Positions 26,009 through 49,624 of a DNA stretch of 64,000 bases are shown in pieces (position 1 is the first letter of the stretch; each line of letters begins with the position of its first letter). The stretch comes from Geminicoccaceae bacterium (GTDB lineage Bacteria; Pseudomonadota; Alphaproteobacteria; Geminicoccales; Geminicoccaceae): positions 255,501-319,500 of the forward strand of contig AP024683.1 in NCBI GenBank assembly GCA_025999455.1, read 5' to 3'. The notes under the pieces are model-generated. The model saw only the letters and a list, made by a program, of their open reading frames with translations, was not told the DNA's origin and did no database searches. The position numbers and the translations under genes were made by a program.

Positions 26009-26056
26009 GCCCGTTCGGCCGCTCCGCACCGGCGATGGAGGTGGGGGGCTTCTGTT

Positions 26057-26331
26057 GCCCGGCGCCCCCCGGGCCGCGCTTACCTAATCGAGATCAGGCA
26101 GCGAGCGCCAGACGATTGTCGTTGGCACTTGTGGTTTCGGCCCGATAACGGCGGTACCATGCCGGGCGAAAGCTGCTCCTTTACTGCGCGCGTCGATCCT
26201 GAGTCGCCCCCGCGCGGCCGGGCTCCCTCACGGAAGCCCGGCTCGGAATTGGTGGAGGCGCCGGGCTCTGCCCCCGGGTCCGCAACGCCTATTCCGAGCA
26301 GTGTTCATCGCCATCTCCGGCTCGCGCCGGC
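26057..26331 (-). ncRNA. ssrA: tmRNA, two-piece (circularly permuted)
   Basis: Transcribed from about 26331 downward. The acceptor piece comes first and ends in CGCCTCC-A-CCA (26260-26250). After a spacer (26249-26212) containing a 7-bp GCCGGGC hairpin, the coding piece starts at 26211 with GGGGGCGACTCAGGATCGACG. The seven bases GGGGGCG pair with CGCCTCC, giving an alanine-type G3-U70 pair. The tag frame (26126-26094) reads [10 protein letters not shown] then UGA, and its end folds into helix 5 (GCCUGAU/AUUAGGU, CUCG loop). The acceptor T-stem CCGGG/CCCGG encloses GGCAGAG where tRNAs have TTCGAAT. The 3' end of the coding piece is approximate; a GCCCGG/CCGGGC hairpin closes it at 26057-26074. 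Confidence 0.93.
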
Positions 26332-26337
26332 AACCCC

Positions 26338-26365
26338 AATATAGGGATCGGCCACCGAACTGCAA
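26338..26365 (-). promoter_or_regulatory. Probable sigma70 promoter of ssrA
   Basis: On the minus strand TTGCAG (26365-26360) and TATATT (26343-26338) are separated by 16 bases. The -10 matches the consensus at five of six positions, the -35 at four. Initiation about seven bases downstream, near 26331, fits the expected 5' end of the acceptor piece of the tmRNA precursor. AT-rich elements like this stand out in sequence of about 70% GC. Confidence 0.6.
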
Positions 26366-26441
26366 CGGGCGCCCCGGGCCGGCTCTCGACAGCGCTACCT
26401 CGGCGCTCCATGAAACGCCGCGTCTCGACGGGAGATGCGGC

Positions 26442-42579: not shown

Positions 42580-43530
42580 ATGGGTGAGCGGCGGGTCAAA
42601 CTCGCGATCGTGGGAGCCGGGCCGGCCGGCTACACGGCGGCGATCTACGCCGCGCGCGCCAACCTCGCCCCGCTCCTGATCCAGGGCCTGCAACCGGGCG
42701 GCCAGCTCGCGATCACGACCGACGTCGAGAACTTCCCGGGCTTCCCCGAGCCGATCCAGGGGCCCGAGCTCATGGAGCGGATGGCCGCCCAAGCACGGCA
42801 TTGTGGGGCCGAACTGTTGGCCGACGTGGTGAGCGCGGTCGAGCTCGGGCGACGACCCTTCAGGCTCGTCCTCGACAGCGGCGACGTGGTGCTCTGCGAC
42901 GCCCTCATCGTCGCCACGGGCGCCCAGGCGCGCTGGCTCGGTCTGCCGAGCGAGCGGCGGTTTCAGGGCTTCGGCGTGTCGGCCTGCGCGACCTGCGACG
43001 GGTTCTTCTTCCGCGGCAAGGAGGTCGCGGTGGTGGGCGGCGGCAACAGCGCGGTCGAGGAGGCGCTCTACCTGGCGCAGATGTGCGCCAAGGTGACCCT
43101 GGTTCACCGCCGCGACACGCTGCGCGCCGAAAAGATCCTGCAGAAGCGGCTCTTCGCCAATCCCAAGATCGAAGTCGTCTGGAACCACGTCGTCGAGGAG
43201 GTGCTCGGCGAAGACGAGCCGCGCGGTGTGACCGGGCTCCGATTGCGCCACGTCCACACGGGTGAGACGCGTGTTCTCCCGGTCCACGGGCTGTTCGTGG
43301 CGATCGGCCACGATCCGGCGACCGCGCTCTTCAAGAACCAACTCGACATGGACGCGGAGGGCTATATCCTGACCGCGCCGGGCAGCACCCGGACCAGTGT
43401 TCCGGGCGTGTTCGCGGCCGGCGACGTCCAGGACAAGCTGTTCCGTCAGGCGGTCACGGCCGCCGGTACCGGCTGCATGGCGGCGCTCGAGGCCGATCGC
43501 TGGCTGGCGGAACAAGCGGCGGGCGGTTGA
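42580..43530 (+). CDS. trxB: Thioredoxin reductase
   Basis: 316 residues. An NADPH-dependent flavoprotein that reduces thioredoxin (trxA at 4.1 kb is a candidate partner). FAD-binding GAGPAGYTAAIYAARANL at the N-terminus; redox-active Cys136 and Cys139 in ACATCDGFFF; NADP-binding VAVVGGGNSAVEEALYLA; C-terminal FAD motif VPGVFAAGDVQDKLFRQAVTAAGTGCMAALEA. Followed 37 bases later by a lysR gene, the order seen in related genomes. Confidence 0.96.
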   Translation: MGERRVKLAIVGAGPAGYTAAIYAARANLAPLLIQGLQPGGQLAITTDVENFPGFPEPIQGPELMERMAAQARHCGAELLADVVSAVELGRRPFRLVLDSGDVVLCDALIVATGAQARWLGLPSERRFQGFGVSACATCDGFFFRGKEVAVVGGGNSAVEEALYLAQMCAKVTLVHRRDTLRAEKILQKRLFANPKIEVVWNHVVEEVLGEDEPRGVTGLRLRHVHTGETRVLPVHGLFVAIGHDPATALFKNQLDMDAEGYILTAPGSTRTSVPGVFAAGDVQDKLFRQAVTAAGTGCMAALEADRWLAEQAAGG

Positions 43531-43567: not shown

Positions 43568-44473
43568 ATGCTCGACTGGGATCGCATTCGCATTTTCCAC
43601 GTCGTCGCCGAGGCGGGCAGCTTCACCCGCGCGGCCGACAAGCTCGGGCTCTCGCAGTCGGCGATCAGCCGGCAGATCGGCGCCCTCGAAGAGGATCTGG
43701 GCGCGCCCCTCTTCCACCGCCACGCCCGCGGTCTCGTGCTCACCGAACAAGGCGACATCCTCTTGGAAGCCGCCCGCGAGGTCGCCCGCAAGATGGCCGC
43801 GGCGCAGACCGCACTCCGCGAGAGCCGCGAAGTGCCGGCAGGGCATTTGCGGGTGTGCACGACGGTGGGCGTGGGCACGGTCTGGCTCGCCTCGCATCTC
43901 GCCGAGTTCCTCGACCGCTACCCGGACATCACGATCTCCTTGATCGTGACAGATGCCGAGCTCGACCTCTCGATGCGCGAGGCCGACGTCGCCGTGCGGA
44001 TGCAGCGGCCGACCCAGTCGGATTTAATCCAGCGGCGGCTCATGACCGTGCACACGCACATCTACGCCGCGCCCTCCTATCTCGAGCGGTACGGCACGCC
44101 GACCTCGACGGCCGATCTCGACCGGCACCGGCTCGTCGCCTACGGGGAGGATCCGAACCTGTCGAGCCAACCGCTCAACTGGATCCTCTACGCCGGGCTC
44201 GAAGAGGGCGAGATCGACCGGCCGCGCAAGGCGGCTCTCAGGGTCAACAACGTCTACGGCATGTTGCGGGCCGTCCAGAGTGGCCTCGGCCTCGCCTCGC
44301 TGCCCGACTATCTCGCGAGCGGGGCGGGTTCGCTCGTGCGCGTCCTGCCGGAGCTCGATGGTCCGAGCTTCACGGGCTATTTCGTCTATCCCGAGGAGTT
44401 GCGGAACTCGAAGCGGGTCGCCGTGTTCCGCGACTTCCTGCTGGAGAAGGTCGCCCAGCAGCCGGTCTGGTGA
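43568..44473 (+). CDS. LysR-family transcriptional regulator
   Basis: About 301 residues. The N-terminal winged helix-turn-helix (IFHVVAEAGSFTRAADKLGLSQSAISRQIGALEEDLGAPLFHRHARGLVLTEQG) is textbook LysR. The C-terminal effector domain (TVGVGTVWLASHLAEFLDRYPDITISLIVTDAELDLSMREADVAVRMQRPT) is of the GcvA/ArgP-like class. Target and effector unknown. Same strand as trxB, so it may be cotranscribed; a 7-bp CCATGCC/GGCATGG hairpin with AAAAA loop (44479-44497) follows the stop without a U-run. Confidence 0.9.
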   Translation: MLDWDRIRIFHVVAEAGSFTRAADKLGLSQSAISRQIGALEEDLGAPLFHRHARGLVLTEQGDILLEAAREVARKMAAAQTALRESREVPAGHLRVCTTVGVGTVWLASHLAEFLDRYPDITISLIVTDAELDLSMREADVAVRMQRPTQSDLIQRRLMTVHTHIYAAPSYLERYGTPTSTADLDRHRLVAYGEDPNLSSQPLNWILYAGLEEGEIDRPRKAALRVNNVYGMLRAVQSGLGLASLPDYLASGAGSLVRVLPELDGPSFTGYFVYPEELRNSKRVAVFRDFLLEKVAQQPVW

Positions 44474-44497
44474 GGCCGCCATGCCAAAAAGGCATGG

Positions 44498-44680
44498 CAC
44501 TGTTGCACTGGAGCACTAGCGGAAATCGTCAGCGATCCCTAATTGATGCGGTGCAACAAGGGCTGCTCTGGGAGCCCTCGTTGCAGCGGCCTTCACGGGC
44601 CGCAGCCCCGGGGGCGCGATGCCCTCGGGTGGGATCTCCGGATCCCTTTCCCCCAGACGTTTAGCCTCCCTGATCCACTC
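44498..44680 (+). ncRNA. Putative structured non-coding RNA, unidentified
   Basis: Intergenic sequence on the strand that ends in a strong intrinsic terminator. Successive hairpins: GTTGCAC (44502-44508) with GTGCAAC (44551-44557), a 7-bp long-range stem; AGGGCT/AGCCCT (44559-44578); GCGGCC/GGCCGC (44586-44603); CCCGGGGGC/GCCCTCGGG, 9 bp with GCGAT loop (44607-44629); GGGATC/GATCCC (44631-44646). No coding frame of quality and no downstream gene within 1.4 kb on this strand, so a cis riboswitch is unlikely. I see no SRP, RNase P, tmRNA or known riboswitch signature; 6S RNA is possible by size. The 5' end is uncertain. Confidence 0.55.
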
Positions 44681-44709
44681 GGCCGGGCCTCGCGCCCGGC
44701 CATTTTTTT
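44681..44709 (+). terminator. Intrinsic terminator of the putative RNA
   Basis: A perfect 8-bp stem GGCCGGGC/GCCCGGCC with CTCGC loop (44681-44701) followed by A and seven T (44703-44709). One of the clearest terminators in the window, lying over 200 bases after the lysR stop. The remaining interval, 44710-45105, shows no gene or obvious signal. Confidence 0.85.
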
Positions 44710-45105
44710 CGTCAGGGAACCGGTTGCCCTCGATGTTCGCGGCTCCGCTCCGCGTCGTCGCGGTGAGGCAATCCGTCACAGCCGTGCTACGGCGCCCCTG
44801 CCTGCCCGTCAAGCGCGGATGCAAGGCACTCGCGCGTTTTTGCAGCGCAACATGTTCGACCGCGGCACGAGCTGGCCCGAGACGTGCACGAGCGGCCCCG
44901 GCCTGCCACGCGCTCGAGGCCGTCGGGCGGAACACGGGTGCAGAGGCGAGGATCGTGGCCCGCACGCTCGACCCGCCAAGCGAACGCGTCACCGTCACCA
45001 GAAAAGGGGTCGACCCGCGCGGCGACCCCGACGGAGTCGCCGCCGGCTCACCTCGCCGTGGGGAAGGCTCCGCCTCGTCGCGGACCGGCTCGGCCCGCGG
45101 CCGCT

Positions 45106-46077
45106 TCAATCGTCGATCAAGAGCCCGTACGGCACTTCGCCCACGGGGATCGAGCGAAGCGCCTTGAGGCTCGCCGTGTCGATCACCGTGATGTCGTCGG
45201 AGAGGCCGTTGGCGACGTAGAGCAGCCGCTCGTCGCGGGTCAGCCGCAAGCCCCAGGGTCGCCGACCCACGAGGACGTAGTCGATGACCTTCTTGCTCGG
45301 CACGTCGACGACCGCCACGTGGTTGGCTCGGCCGAGCGCCACGAAGGCTCGTTTGCCGTCGCGCGTGATCAGCACGTCCACCGGCGTGACCATCTCGCGC
45401 CGCATGCCCCTCGGCAAAAACTCGATCGTGTGGACGACCTCGAGCGTCGCCACGTCGACGACGTTGACGACGCCCGCGATCTCGGCCGAGACCCAGAGTT
45501 CCTTGGCGTCCGGGGTGAGGGCGAAGCGGCGCGGTCGCGTGTCGGTGACGATGTCCTTGACGACTTCCTGTTTCTCGGTGTCGATCACGTGGACGAGGTT
45601 GGCCGCTTCGGAAGCCACGAAGACGAGCTTGCCGTCCGGGGTGGCGAGCACCCCTTCGGGTTCTTCGCCCGTGTCGAATGCGCCGACTTGCTCGCCGGTC
45701 TCGAGGTCGAAGACCGTCGCCTGCGCATCTTCCTCGTTGGAGACGTAGAGGTGCCGCCCGTCGGGATGCAGATCGAAGGTCTCGGGTGCCGCCACGTTGG
45801 TGATCCGCCGGACCAGCTCGAAAGTCCCCGTATCGTAGATGGCGATGAGGTTGTCGTCGGCGCAGCCGACCAGGAACTGCTTGCGGTTGGGCGTGAAGAT
45901 CATGCCGCGCGGCCGGCCACAGGTCGGGATCGTTTTGATCACCTTGTCCTCGGCGTCGAGGATGGTGAGCGTGCTGCTCTTCTCGTTGGCGACGATCCGG
46001 TTCCCCGTGGCAGCCGAGGCCGCCCCGGCGAGGGCCGTCGACAGCACGAGCACCGTCCCGAAGCTGCGCCAGACCAT
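45106..46077 (-). CDS. PQQ-catabolism-associated beta-propeller protein
   Basis: 323 residues with an N-terminal signal peptide (FGTVLVLSTALAGAASA) and about seven YVTN-type beta-propeller repeats, such as PDGRHLYVSNEEDAQATVFDLETGEQVGAF and RDERLLYVANGLSDDITVIDTASLKALRSI. It matches the secreted propeller family found beside PQQ-dependent alcohol dehydrogenases; its role is unknown, perhaps scaffolding or electron-transfer partner binding in the periplasm. Divergent from the ankyrin gene with under 100 bases between them. Confidence 0.85.
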   Translation of the reverse strand: MVWRSFGTVLVLSTALAGAASAATGNRIVANEKSSTLTILDAEDKVIKTIPTCGRPRGMIFTPNRKQFLVGCADDNLIAIYDTGTFELVRRITNVAAPETFDLHPDGRHLYVSNEEDAQATVFDLETGEQVGAFDTGEEPEGVLATPDGKLVFVASEAANLVHVIDTEKQEVVKDIVTDTRPRRFALTPDAKELWVSAEIAGVVNVVDVATLEVVHTIEFLPRGMRREMVTPVDVLITRDGKRAFVALGRANHVAVVDVPSKKVIDYVLVGRRPWGLRLTRDERLLYVANGLSDDITVIDTASLKALRSIPVGEVPYGLLIDD

Positions 46078-46167
46078 CCTCTACCTCCCTTCGCTTCCGC
46101 TTATCGGGAGCATAAGGCGCGCTTTTCGTTTCGACCAGTCCGCGATCGTCACGGCCGGCGCGCCGCG

Positions 46168-47103
46168 ACGTGGAGGTTCGCGCCCGGTTGGATCGGCCTG
46201 CTCGCGGCGATCCCGCTCCTGCTCCTCGCCGCCACCCCCGCCGCTGCCCAGAGCTGCCGCGAGCGGGAGATCCGGCTCGCCCAGCTCGTCGAGCCGACCC
46301 CGCGTCAGCTCGCCCAAGAGCTCGCCTTCGCCGCCGAACGGGGCTGTCGGGAGCTCGCCGAGCGCCTCCTCGACGCGGGGGCCCCGATCGACGTGCGTGA
46401 CCGTGCCGGCGAGACCGCCCTTTTGAAGGCGGCGCGCGCCGGCCGGGTCGAGATCCTGCGGCTATTGCTCGACCACGGCGCCGATCCGACGGTGCGCAGC
46501 CTCGCCGGGGCGACCGCCCTGTTCCTGGCGGTCGAAGCCAATCGCCCGAACGTCGTCGCCCTCCTCCTCGAGCGCGGCGTGCCGGCCGACGGACCCGGCC
46601 GGAGCGGCGTCACGCCCTTGGCCGCCGCGGCGTTCAACGGCACCGAGCGGCTCGTCGAGCTCCTTCTGCGCCACGGGGCGAACCCGGCCGCCGCCGATGC
46701 GACCGGCAAGACACCGCTCGTTTACGCCGCCGCGCGCGGCCACGCGGCGATCGTCCGCCGCCTCTTGGACGCCGGAGTTGCGGTCGACACCCGCCACGCC
46801 CACGGCCTCACCGCTCTCATGTGGGCAGCCGGCCACGCTAACGACGTGCCCGCGGCCGACGGGCTCGCCACCGTTCGCCTGCTGCTCGAGCGCGGCGCCG
46901 ACCTCGAACTCCGCGACGATCGCGGTCGAACGGCGCTGTTGATCGCGGCCGAGCGGGGCCATGCCGCGATCGTCGATCTCCTGCTCGCAGCCGGTGCCGA
47001 TCCGCGGGCGCGCGATCGGGAAGGCCTCGGTCTCGTCGAGCTCGCGGCCGACCAGGCGATCGCCTCCCGCGCCCTTGGCACCCCTCAGAGCGCGCCCAAA
47101 TAG
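46168..47103 (+). CDS. Exported ankyrin-repeat protein (start uncertain)
   Basis: About 311 residues. A signal peptide (GWIGLLAAIPLLLLAATPAAAQS) precedes some eight ankyrin repeats, such as AGETALLKAARAGRVEILRLLLDHGADP and TGKTPLVYAAARGHAAIVRRLLDAGVAV. Periplasmic ankyrin proteins occur near redox enzymes, but no function can be read here. No ATG, GTG or TTG is in frame between the start of the divergent gene and the signal peptide; the listed start (ACG) is only the likely region. A GTG at 46170 lies in another frame, so a start-region frameshift or a rare start codon must be assumed. It overlaps the convergent cytochrome gene by 19 bases. Confidence 0.75.
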   Translation, partial: TWRFAPGWIGLLAAIPLLLLAATPAAAQSCREREIRLAQLVEPTPRQLAQELAFAAERGCRELAERLLDAGAPIDVRDRAGETALLKAARAGRVEILRLLLDHGADPTVRSLAGATALFLAVEANRPNVVALLLERGVPADGPGRSGVTPLAAAAFNGTERLVELLLRHGANPAAADATGKTPLVYAAARGHAAIVRRLLDAGVAVDTRHAHGLTALMWAAGHANDVPAADGLATVRLLLERGADLELRDDRGRTALLIAAERGHAAIVDLLLAAGADPRARDREGLGLVELAADQAIASRALGTPQSAPK

Positions 47104-47717
47104 CGGGCGAGGGCGTCGATCTCCTCGTCCGTGAAGGTGTCGAGGAGGCTCGACATGGCGGCGTTGTTGGCGCGTTCCTTGGTTTTGAAAGCGCGCATGG
47201 TGACCACGAGGTAGCTCGTGAGCTGGCCCGCCAGACGCGGCACGGTGCTGTCACCCATGTAGCCGGAGAGATGACACTCCTTGCACATACCGGCGCTCGC
47301 CAAGCGCTCGGCCACCACGTCGTCGCCCTCTTCGGCGGTTTGCTGCAGCCTCGGCCAGGGGCGCTTGGCGAAGAAGGCCGCGAGCTCGCGTATGTCCTGG
47401 CGGGAGAGGTCCTTCACGATCTCGTTCATGACCTCGTGCTTGCGCGAGCCGTTCTTGTAGTCACGGAGCTGGATGTAGAGATAGCCTTCGTGCTGGCCGT
47501 CGATGATCGGAGCTTCCGCGTGGTTGGGCACACCGTTCTCGCCGTGACAGGCGAGGCACATCGGGACGAGCTCGGCCAGATGGCCGGAAAGCTGGTCGAG
47601 GCCGGGGATGGCAGCCGGTGCCGGCGATCGTTCGGTCTGTGCGCCGATCGACGAGCCGATGCCGCCGAGGACGGCGACGCAGAGCGGGAGGAACCAGCGA
47701 CCTCGTTTCATGAGCAT
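47085..47717 (-). CDS. Di-haem cytochrome c (c4-like)
   Basis: 210 residues: signal peptide (FLPLCVAVLGGIGSSIGA) then two cytochrome c domains, with CLACH at residues 54-58 and CKECH at 145-149, and methionines suitable as distal ligands in each half (HEVMNEIVKDLS; NNAAMSSLLDTFTDEEIDALARYL). The tandem layout resembles cytochrome c4. It is encoded just downstream of the first PQQ dehydrogenase on the same strand, so it is the likely electron acceptor. Start ATG at 47717 or 47711; both leave the signal peptide intact. Confidence 0.88.
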   Translation of the reverse strand: MLMKRGRWFLPLCVAVLGGIGSSIGAQTERSPAPAAIPGLDQLSGHLAELVPMCLACHGENGVPNHAEAPIIDGQHEGYLYIQLRDYKNGSRKHEVMNEIVKDLSRQDIRELAAFFAKRPWPRLQQTAEEGDDVVAERLASAGMCKECHLSGYMGDSTVPRLAGQLTSYLVVTMRAFKTKERANNAAMSSLLDTFTDEEIDALARYLGAL

Positions 47718-47738
47718 TCCCTGATCCTCGAACGCGAT

Positions 47739-47766
47739 GGGCGGAGCCCGTGCCCGGGCTCCGCCC
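47739..47766 (-). promoter_or_regulatory. Perfect hairpin between the quinoprotein and cytochrome genes
   Basis: A 12-bp perfect stem GGGCGGAGCCCG/CGGGCTCCGCCC with a four-base loop in the 83-base gap between the PQQ dehydrogenase (stop at 47801) and the cytochrome (start at 47717), both on the minus strand. No U-run follows, so it may act as an mRNA 3'-end stabiliser or partial terminator setting different expression levels. Confidence 0.55.
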
Positions 47767-47800
47767 GCCCGTCAACGGTCGAAATGCCGCAGACGGCCCG

Positions 47801-49507
47801 TCAGTCCACCAGGCTGAAGGCGATGATCGCGTTCCCGCGCTTGTAGTCCAGCTGGGTGTTCCCACCCGCCGCCACAACGATGTACTGCTTGCCGTCGACC
47901 GTGTAGCTCGCCGGCGGCGCGTTCACGCCGGCGCCGGCCTGGAAGCTCCAGAGCTGGGCGCCGGTTGCGGCGTCGAGCGCGTTGAACCGACCGTTGCCCT
48001 CACCGAAGAAGACGAGCCCGCCCGCGGTCGCGAGCACGCCGCCGATCAAGGGCTGCGGGGTCTTCACCTCCCAGCGGATCTTGCCGGAGTGGTAGTCGAC
48101 CGCCGAGAGGATGCCCCACTGCTCCTCGGTCGGGATCACCTTGAAGGCACCGCCGAGCCAGAGCTTGCCGCCCGGATAGGGCGTGCTCTCCACGTGGTAC
48201 GTCATCGGCTGGTGCAGGTTCATGGCGTAGGCGAGGCCGAGCCGCTCGTCGACCGCCATGGGTGACCATTCGACGCCGCCGTTCGCACCCGGCAGCATCC
48301 GCGCGCCCTCCTTGGTCGGCAGGGTCCACATGTTCTCCTGCGGAACCATCGCTTCGGAGAAGCGGATGAGCGAGCAGTCGTCGCGCTTGTGGACGTAGAT
48401 GTGACCCGTCTTGCCGCCGTGGATCACGCCCGGGACGAGCTTGCCGTCCTTGTCCTTGACGTCGACCAGGATGGGCGGGCTCACCGCATCGAGGTCCCAG
48501 ACGTCGTGCGCGATGTATTGGAAATGACAGATGTACTTGCCGGTGTCGAGATCGACCGCGACCAGACTGTCGGTGTAGAGATTGTCGCCGGGCCGGAGCG
48601 AGCCATCGAGGTCGGGTGAGGGATTGCCGACCACGAAATAGACGCGACGCCGCTCGAGATCCACAGCCGGATTCTGCCAGACACCGCCGCCGAGCGTCTT
48701 GTAGGGGTCGCCCATCTTGGCGAGTGCTTCTTTCTCGGCCGCGATGTTCCGTTTCATGTCGCGGCCGGTGGCGTCGTGCGTCGCCCACACGCCCACCGAA
48801 TTCTCGGGGATCGTGTAGAAGGTCCACAAGAGCTTGCCGGTCTTGGCGTCGAACGCCTTGACGAAGCCGCGGATGCCGTACTCGCCGCCGTTCGTGCCGA
48901 TCAGGATCTTCCCGTCCACCGCGGTCGGCGCCATGGTCTCGGAATAGCCGAGCTCCGGATCCGCGATCTCGGTCTCCCAGACGAGCTTGCCGGTCTTGGC
49001 GTCGAGCGCGACGAGCTTGGCGTCGAGCGTGCCCATGTAGACCATGTCGCCGTAGGCCGCGACGCCGCGATTGTTCGGGCCGCAGCAATAGACCGTGATC
49101 GGCCCAAGCTTGTGTTTGTAGTGCCAGAGCTCTTCGCCGGTGCGCGCATCGAGCGCGTAGACGTGGTTGAACGCCGTAGTGACGTACATCACCCCGTTCA
49201 CCACGATCGGCGTCGTCTCCATGGTCTCCTTGACCTCGGTCTGGAAGATCCAGGCCGGGCGCAGGCGATGCACGTTCGAGGTGTTGATCTGAGCGTTGGG
49301 ATAGAAACGGGTCTGCTTATAGTTGTGGTTCGTATGGAGGAAGTTGTTACCGTCTCCGGCAGCCGCGTTCAGCATGCGCTGAGTGACGGTGCGCATGTCT
49401 CCGTATTTCGTCGCACCTTTGACTTCTTCGGCCCCAGCCGATCCGACCGCCGTCGCGGCCGCAACGAAAAAACTGGCTCCGGCGAGCCAGCGCGTGTGCT
49501 TCTTCAT
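47801..49507 (-). CDS. PQQ-dependent alcohol dehydrogenase 1, lanthanide-type
   Basis: About 568 residues: signal peptide ([20 protein letters not shown]) and an eight-bladed quinoprotein propeller with tryptophan-docking motifs ([27 protein letters not shown]). The vicinal disulfide is Cys141-Cys142 (YCCGPNNRG). Metal/PQQ residues: Glu in GGEYGIRG, Asn in VVGNPSP, catalytic Asp338, plus Asp340 in HDVWDLDAV; this Asp-x-Asp is the lanthanide signature (calcium enzymes have Ala at the second position). The PQQ-contact segment is [13 protein letters not shown], Lys instead of the Arg of methanol dehydrogenases, so ethanol or other alcohols are likely substrates. ATG at 49507 chosen for the signal peptide. 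Confidence 0.9.
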
Positions 49508-49624
49508 CGTCCGCCCCCCGCGGATAGCTCGCCGTCCGTTCGGCAGCGAGCGGCGCGAAGGGCTAGACCTCCGTGGGCATTTCAGCAAGCGCGCAAACGC
49601 GGGTGCGCCTTTGCGGCTCGCCGA

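Follow-up and report, generated by a model that had tools for sequence, protein, structure and literature searches.

Organization of the locus

The window analysed here, 64,000 nt in length, is the segment C1:255501-319500 of the 3.76 Mb genome of a Geminicoccaceae bacterium. The interval between a LysR-type regulator gene (ending at 44473) and a divergent beta-propeller gene closes in a perfect terminator. Trimmed to the putative transcript, it holds a candidate small RNA (sRNA) at 44552-44709 of the plus strand, ∼158 nt long, with an inferred start that is accurate to a few nucleotides at best. It is predicted to fold into four stem-loops and ends in a perfect 8-bp terminator with seven T; between them lies an anti-Shine-Dalgarno seed (GUUUAGCCUCCCUGAUC) that is mostly left unpaired. 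The features of the locus are as follows.

42580-43530, plus strand: trxB, thioredoxin reductase (TIGR01292, 403.9 bits; cut-off 343.45)
43568-44473, plus strand: LysR-type regulator following trxB, LsrB/VtlR homolog (nearest structure 9HH1), proposed activator
44478-44498: inverted repeat GCCATGCC-AAAAA-GGCATGGC, LysR-type dyad, 54-74 nt before the predicted start
44516-44521, plus strand: predicted −35 hexamer, CTAGCG
44539-44544, plus strand: predicted −10 hexamer, CTAATT, 17 bases after the −35 hexamer
44541-44561: PhaR-like operator AATTGATGCGGTGCAACAAGG (19.3 bits), covering the −10 hexamer and the start site
44552-44585, plus strand: stem-loop 1 (fold, genus alignment, swap test)
44586-44603, plus strand: stem-loop 2 (fold, genus alignment)
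44607-44629, plus strand: stem-loop 3 (fold, genus alignment)
44631-44646, plus strand: stem-loop 4, GGGAUC-UCCG-GAUCCC (fold, genus alignment)
44567-44572 with 44652-44657, plus strand: proposed long-range pairing of UCUGGG, in the loop of stem 1, with CCCAGA (swap test)
44658-44680, plus strand: seed region CGUUUAGCCUCCCUGAUCCACUC, predicted to be mostly single-stranded, with CCUCCCUG at 44665-44672
44681-44709, plus strand: Rho-independent terminator, 8 bp and seven T (stem 44681-44701)
45106-46077, minus strand: beta-propeller gene (TIGR03866)

In the terminator, GGCCGGGC-CUCGC-GCCCGGCC precedes an A and seven T, the last base being 44709. On the plus strand beyond the RNA (∼1.4 kb), the list of ORFs contains overlapping frames only. 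The beta-propeller gene belongs to a quinoprotein cluster on the minus strand (45106-49588), together with cytochrome c and PQQ dehydrogenase genes. Elsewhere in the window, a permuted alphaproteobacterial tmRNA was found at 26040-26369 of the minus strand (201.7 bits).

Distribution and family searches

A DNA search of 60 relatives gave matches in 32 genomes, 29 of them among the 31 Geminicoccaceae genomes (own genome included). From 29 genomes we compiled 40 oriented copies, all found via the 3′ core (the family copies). A covariance model of the 3′ module, R1, built from 36 sequences, matches 199 of 386 Alphaproteobacteria genomes at an E-value of 0.001 or better; other CUCCCU RNAs may be among these matches, given that R1 assigns 33.4 bits to an alpha-r8-like copy in the own genome. 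The class copies are 85 R1 matches outside the family, taken as 25 and 60 loci, with the 60 being mostly the strongest of each family.

The covariance-model search proposed with the original prediction (all Rfam, including 6S) yielded no family at threshold for the RNA locus, neither a riboswitch nor any other. The models coming close are SorX (RF02784), with 42.4 bits where 46.6 are needed, and suhB/mmgR (RF00519), with 31.8 bits where 41 are needed. 6S RNA, named at that time as the main alternative by size, is not supported: no 6S model appears at the gathering level or among matches up to E 10. In 20 class loci no related Rfam family reached threshold, and L147 alone gave a match, to int-alpA; among another 20 class loci, 16 match SorX below threshold. 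In the plasmid collection the studied stretch has no match, and one class copy matches one Tistrella record. A full-text literature search, largely confined to freely available papers, produced no report of this RNA in Geminicoccaceae among the papers listed. By title, none of the listed papers containing the seed motif concerned a bacterial sRNA, and none of those listed for other orders dealt with AbcR.

Additional sRNA candidates were noted. The own-genome alpha-r8-like copy (C1:2955950-2956003, minus strand) is a second candidate, with the core CGUUUCCUCCCU and a terminator; it scores 33 bits with suhB and has no PhaR-like box by eye. A third (C1:421478-421534, plus strand) has CUCCCU and CCUCCCC before a terminator and scores 24.3 bits with R1. 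Near position 1713 of L048, on the minus strand, another CCUCCCUGAUC sRNA candidate with a terminator lies on the strand opposite to the family copy. In Marinimicrococcus flavescens (L015, L061) the sRNA is present in three tandem copies, each with its own box.

Fold and conservation of structure

The whole interval, 44498-44710, folds with −105.4 kcal/mol (z −4.7; not reached by any of 200 shuffles) and the trimmed RNA with −84.8 kcal/mol (z −3.8; not reached by any of 300). Together with the terminator ending at 44709, these values bear out the successive stems and strong terminator of the original prediction. Its assignment of 44498-44710 as the RNA held at the 3′ end; the start lay too far 5′, because 44498-44551 spans the predicted −35 and −10 hexamers and the start site (∼44551-44553), and most of this segment looks like promoter. 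The 5′-most stem of the whole-interval fold (44501-44510 with 44549-44558) and one GATCCC would thus be promoter DNA. For this GATCCC (44534-44539) the suggested long-range pairing with GGGATC is unsupported. Covariation gives moderate support to another long-range pairing, between UCUGGG and CCCAGA.

Alignment of six genomes of the genus (46 pairs, 273 cells scored, slid partners as control) supported the local stems. We observed that 96.7% of the cells pair, as compared with 38-50% for slid partners, and that both sides changed in 8 of the 46 pairs (17 cells) as compared with 0-1 pairs. Compensatory changes occur in all five local stems, so that the comparison of related genomes suggested earlier came out in favor of stems largely kept within this genus. 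Stem 1 loses its two outer pairs in three of the six genomes, and one of the five measures, the number of further pair types, was not above shuffles (16 versus 16.6). The genus is uninformative for the proposed long-range helix, whose six pairs never vary there.

We also used a swap test with 20 representatives of our own choosing and 20 000 permutations. The arms of stem 1 pair with their own partner at −16.7 kcal/mol and with swapped partners at −12.1 kcal/mol (no permutation as low). For the stem 1 loop and the bases before the seed the values are −11.5 and −9.9 kcal/mol (17 permutations as low), and for 255 of 929 other windows from these RNAs the pairing with the loop is as good as that of the proposed partner. 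Four boxed copies from three genera (L037, L048-L050) have instead a local hairpin, ACGUCU-CCC-AGACGU, a sequence found exactly in 60 of the 85 class copies and 5 of the 40 family copies. RNAalifold returned the terminator and three other pairs from the mixed family alignment and no pairs from the class alignment; the absence of 5′ stems from these mixed alignments is probably due to MAFFT aligning by sequence. The seed CCTCCCTGA is invariant across 36 distinct copies, and AGCCTCCCTGATC across 29.

Predicted promoter and PhaR-like operator

Thirty-three family copies, anchored on a box located 92-141 nt before the core, were aligned without gaps; seven copies lacking a visible box were excluded by eye. 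In this alignment 17 bases separate the elements CTnG and CTAnnT. The −35 element keeps its C, T and G in 27, 28 and 29 of the 33 copies, and the −10 element its C, T, A and T in 24, 29, 30 and 32. From the positions of the hexamers the start is expected near 44552, hence an RNA of ∼158 nt. This predicted promoter agrees with the alphaproteobacterial sigma70 pattern, CTTGAC-N17-CTATAT, which is described, along with a T-N11-A motif, for Sinorhizobium meliloti PabcR1 (PMC8844928).

The box is a PhaR-like palindrome whose right half doubles as the 5′ arm of stem 1. It was scored with a matrix of 17 S. meliloti sites from promoters reported as bound efficiently in gel shifts (PMC12542648), a set that includes mmgR's own site. 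A site of at least 8 bits precedes 31 of the 40 family copies. Of 292 control windows 5 contained such a site, and four of these five, at 18 bits or more, may be real sites. The nine remaining family copies stay below 8 bits, and seven of them have no visible box. Outside the family, scores of at least 12 bits were observed in 28 of 85 copies (2 of 206 control windows) and of at least 16 bits in 14 (none in the control); in these copies the palindrome is often placed, as it seems, deeper within the transcribed region, so that it could partly be an RNA hairpin. A PhaR domain is present in 30 of 31 family genomes. At 16 bits or more the matrix finds sites before the domain at 25 of 30 phasin loci (30 of 57 matches examined), at 2 of 30 phaR loci and at none of the eight phaC loci examined.

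In S. meliloti, PhaR is reported to shift the mmgR promoter, with the site listed at position 13 from the start; the main text of the same paper mentions neither AbcR nor lsrB (PMC12542648). No PhaR site at an abcR promoter was reported within the scope of our literature search. Repression of the S. meliloti phasin genes by PhaR is relieved when granules of PHB take PhaR away. In two loci with boxless copies, L009 and L013, the sRNA and a class I PHA synthase gene converge, with ∼65 nt between the end of the gene and the beginning of the sRNA core. L004, L005, L006 and L042 have strong PhaR-like sites (18.9-27.7 bits) beyond the sRNA, some hundreds of bases 3′ of its core.

The adjacent LysR-type regulator

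Among solved structures, the best match of the LysR-type protein is 9HH1, LsrB of Agrobacterium tumefaciens (318.6 bits, with the next at 126.7 bits); no curated NCBIfam model reached its cut-off among the matches listed. For A. tumefaciens LsrB, cysteines C144 and C273 are reported to matter for redox sensing (PMC11975290). The studied protein has valine at both positions and a sole cysteine at residue 97; a redox role was dropped since both redox-sensing cysteines are missing.

Of the 40 family copies, 23 have a homolog of this gene upstream in the same orientation; the figure for the class is 51 of 85, where upstream sequence covered only ∼460 nt for 60 of the copies. No lysR was present in the other 17 family copies within the 148-1579 nt covered. 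Thirty loci covered the whole lysR gene plus more than 100 nt of preceding sequence; in 29 of them trxB comes before lysR, the exception being L162. The gene order in A. tumefaciens is given as trxB-vtlR-abcR1-abcR2 (PMC7486931), and abcR1/2 of S. meliloti are described as adjoining lsrB (PMC3712013). LsrB is reported to bind and activate PabcR1 in S. meliloti (PMC8844928); the control of AbcR by LsrB in this species is disputed between sources, PMC7486931 giving it no role and PMC8844928 a strong role for AbcR1.

The inverted repeat before the predicted promoter contains ATGC-N7-GCAT, of the T-N11-A type, at 44481-44495. This dyad precedes 56 of the 85 class copies, as compared with 2 of 335 control windows; among family copies it is exact in only 4 of 39 (none of 555 controls). 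The published VtlR box, GCAT-N3-TG-N3-T, is absent from both strands of 44450-44552; its pattern occurs in 4 of 39 family copies as compared with 4 of 555 control windows, and in 19 of 85 class copies as compared with 7 of 335.

Seed and target scan

The predicted seed, CCUCCCUG, is complementary to strong ribosome-binding sites. In the own genome CAGGGAGG occurs 27 times at 4-9 bases before ATG, as compared with once for the reversed pattern. The 26 matches followed by an ORF of at least 80 aa, our target set, include nine genes for substrate-binding proteins, one for a permease and one for acetoacetyl-CoA reductase (TIGR01829, 373.8 bits; cut-off 302.1). The control set had another base before the site; from the first 30 of its 46 matches, 27 have an ORF of at least 80 aa. 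Transporter enrichment was absent, with substrate-binding proteins in 9 of 26 targets and 7 of 27 controls and one permease in each, and the control set thus removed the idea of a transporter-rich target scan.

Interpretation

The trans-acting RNA of the original prediction is supported by the promoter pattern of its own, the conserved stems, the invariant anti-Shine-Dalgarno seed and the terminator. The label ‘unassigned’ stands insofar as no Rfam model reaches threshold; it gives way where place, seed and likely regulator point to the position of rhizobial AbcR1, and where the 3′ end resembles SorX and MmgR. Our main reading, with a probability of about two in three, is a trans-acting sRNA of AbcR1-like but divergent type, which the LsrB-type LysR protein activates and PhaR represses until PHB accumulates. 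The LysR protein would activate transcription from the dyad; PhaR, by analogy with the S. meliloti phasin genes, would block transcription at the start site until PHB granules remove it. The sRNA, probably Hfq-dependent, would pair via GCCUCCCUGAUC with ribosome-binding sites, and this pairing may lower translation of uptake and carbon-storage genes. A model-aided analysis places PHB metabolism among the traits likely under AbcR1/2 (PMC8844928). Our confidence, in this reading and in the more speculative one below, is slightly lowered by the absence of the redox cysteines and of the published VtlR box.

An MmgR-like PHB sRNA of the alpha-r8 kind, with PhaR as its sole real regulator and the place beside lysR incidental, would account for a PhaR-like operator overlapping the start site, a position also listed for mmgR of S. 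meliloti, for the suhB/mmgR score and for the two boxless copies with an opposite-strand PHA synthase gene. We consider it unlikely: the seed GUUUAGCCUCCCUG is unlike the alpha-r8 core UUUCCUCCCU as given in PMC12559287, a distinct copy with GUUUCCUCCCU exists in the genome at the second candidate locus, and many families of the class show the same linkage to trxB-lysR. Somewhat less likely again is a SorX-like piece processed from the 3′ UTR of a trxB-lysR mRNA and having no promoter of its own. Rhodobacter SorX derives from the ompR-1 3′ UTR (PMC8625941), the SorX model comes near its threshold here and finds most of the 20 class loci below it, and lysR ends only ∼80 nt before the RNA; against this stand the promoter-like hexamers and operator at fixed spacing in 33 copies, 11 of which have no lysR within the covered sequence. 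That the strong terminator merely ends lysR or a read-through transcript, with no trans function, is very improbable given a seed that is invariant while stems covary and extra copies with no adjacent lysR, three of them in tandem in one genome.

Returning to the AbcR1-like reading, AbcR sRNAs (alpha-r15) have been described from Rhizobiaceae and Brucellaceae (PMC3712013, PMC8844928). Were it true, a LysR-sRNA pair at the trxB locus would reach much of Alphaproteobacteria, the sRNA in many lineages would carry an operator reading PHB stores, and the LysR signal, carbon storage and nutrient uptake would meet on one small RNA. A covariance-model seed is gained for RNAs that stay below Rfam thresholds. 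More speculatively, and with doubt prevailing, AbcR1, SorX, SmelC671 and the studied RNA may be branches of one ancestral alphaproteobacterial sRNA located beside trxB-lsrB and wired early to an LsrB-type LysR and, via PhaR, to stored carbon. Most Geminicoccaceae copies would then have exchanged the local hairpin by the seed for a long-range pairing that engages the stem 1 loop; the 5′ arm of this stem also forms half of the PhaR operator.

Comparison with known sRNAs

Like AbcR1/AbcR2 of S. meliloti and A. tumefaciens, the studied RNA is placed after trxB and lsrB/vtlR, and it shares the T-N11-A motif, a CTTGAC-N17-CTATAT-like promoter, an anti-Shine-Dalgarno motif and a terminator. AbcR RNAs are shorter, 114-121 nt as compared with ∼158 nt, and have GUUCCC before the terminator where the studied RNA has CCUCCCUG; in place of the published VtlR box the studied locus has the T-N11-A dyad, and a PhaR-like operator goes unmentioned for abcR in the portions of the sources covered. 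The Rfam model ar15 (RF02345) gave no match up to E 10 in 44200-45000 and none in the 386 class genomes, where controls were equally silent. Brucella AbcR RNAs are described as having motif M1, CUCCCA, in the first hairpin and motif M2, GUUCCC, single-stranded (PMC5461406); the studied RNA has CCCCCA and its seed octamer instead, so that it departs from both. Among the copies, CUCCCA precedes the seed in 75 of the 85 from the class and in 18 of the 40 from the family.

With MmgR and SisA-D (alpha-r8) the studied RNA shares a hairpin, a CCUCCCU seed, a terminator and, judged by sequence only, a PhaR site at the transcription start as listed for mmgR. It differs in having GUUUAGCCUCCCUG and not the 10-nt core UUUCCUCCCU, in its score below the suhB gathering value, in a much longer 5′ domain and in its neighbor gene. 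As in Rhodobacter SorX, a CUCCCUG seed is followed by the terminator stem GGCCGGGC; SorX, however, is 75 nt long and cut from the ompR-1 3′ UTR, whereas the studied RNA has a predicted promoter of its own and stays below the SorX gathering score.

SmelC671/Sm84 of S. meliloti, compared by description only, is similar in having a single-stranded CUCCCUGU between hairpins and a terminator (PMC3927594), and dissimilar in its length of 100 nt (PMC2873474) and in the corresponding motif, which is CUCCCUGA in the studied RNA. By the tests run, the studied RNA is a strict member of none of ar15, aR8 and SorX. Its sequence features are those of a conserved regulatory RNA that appears AbcR1-like in place and probable control and divergent in sequence, with a PhaR-like operator.
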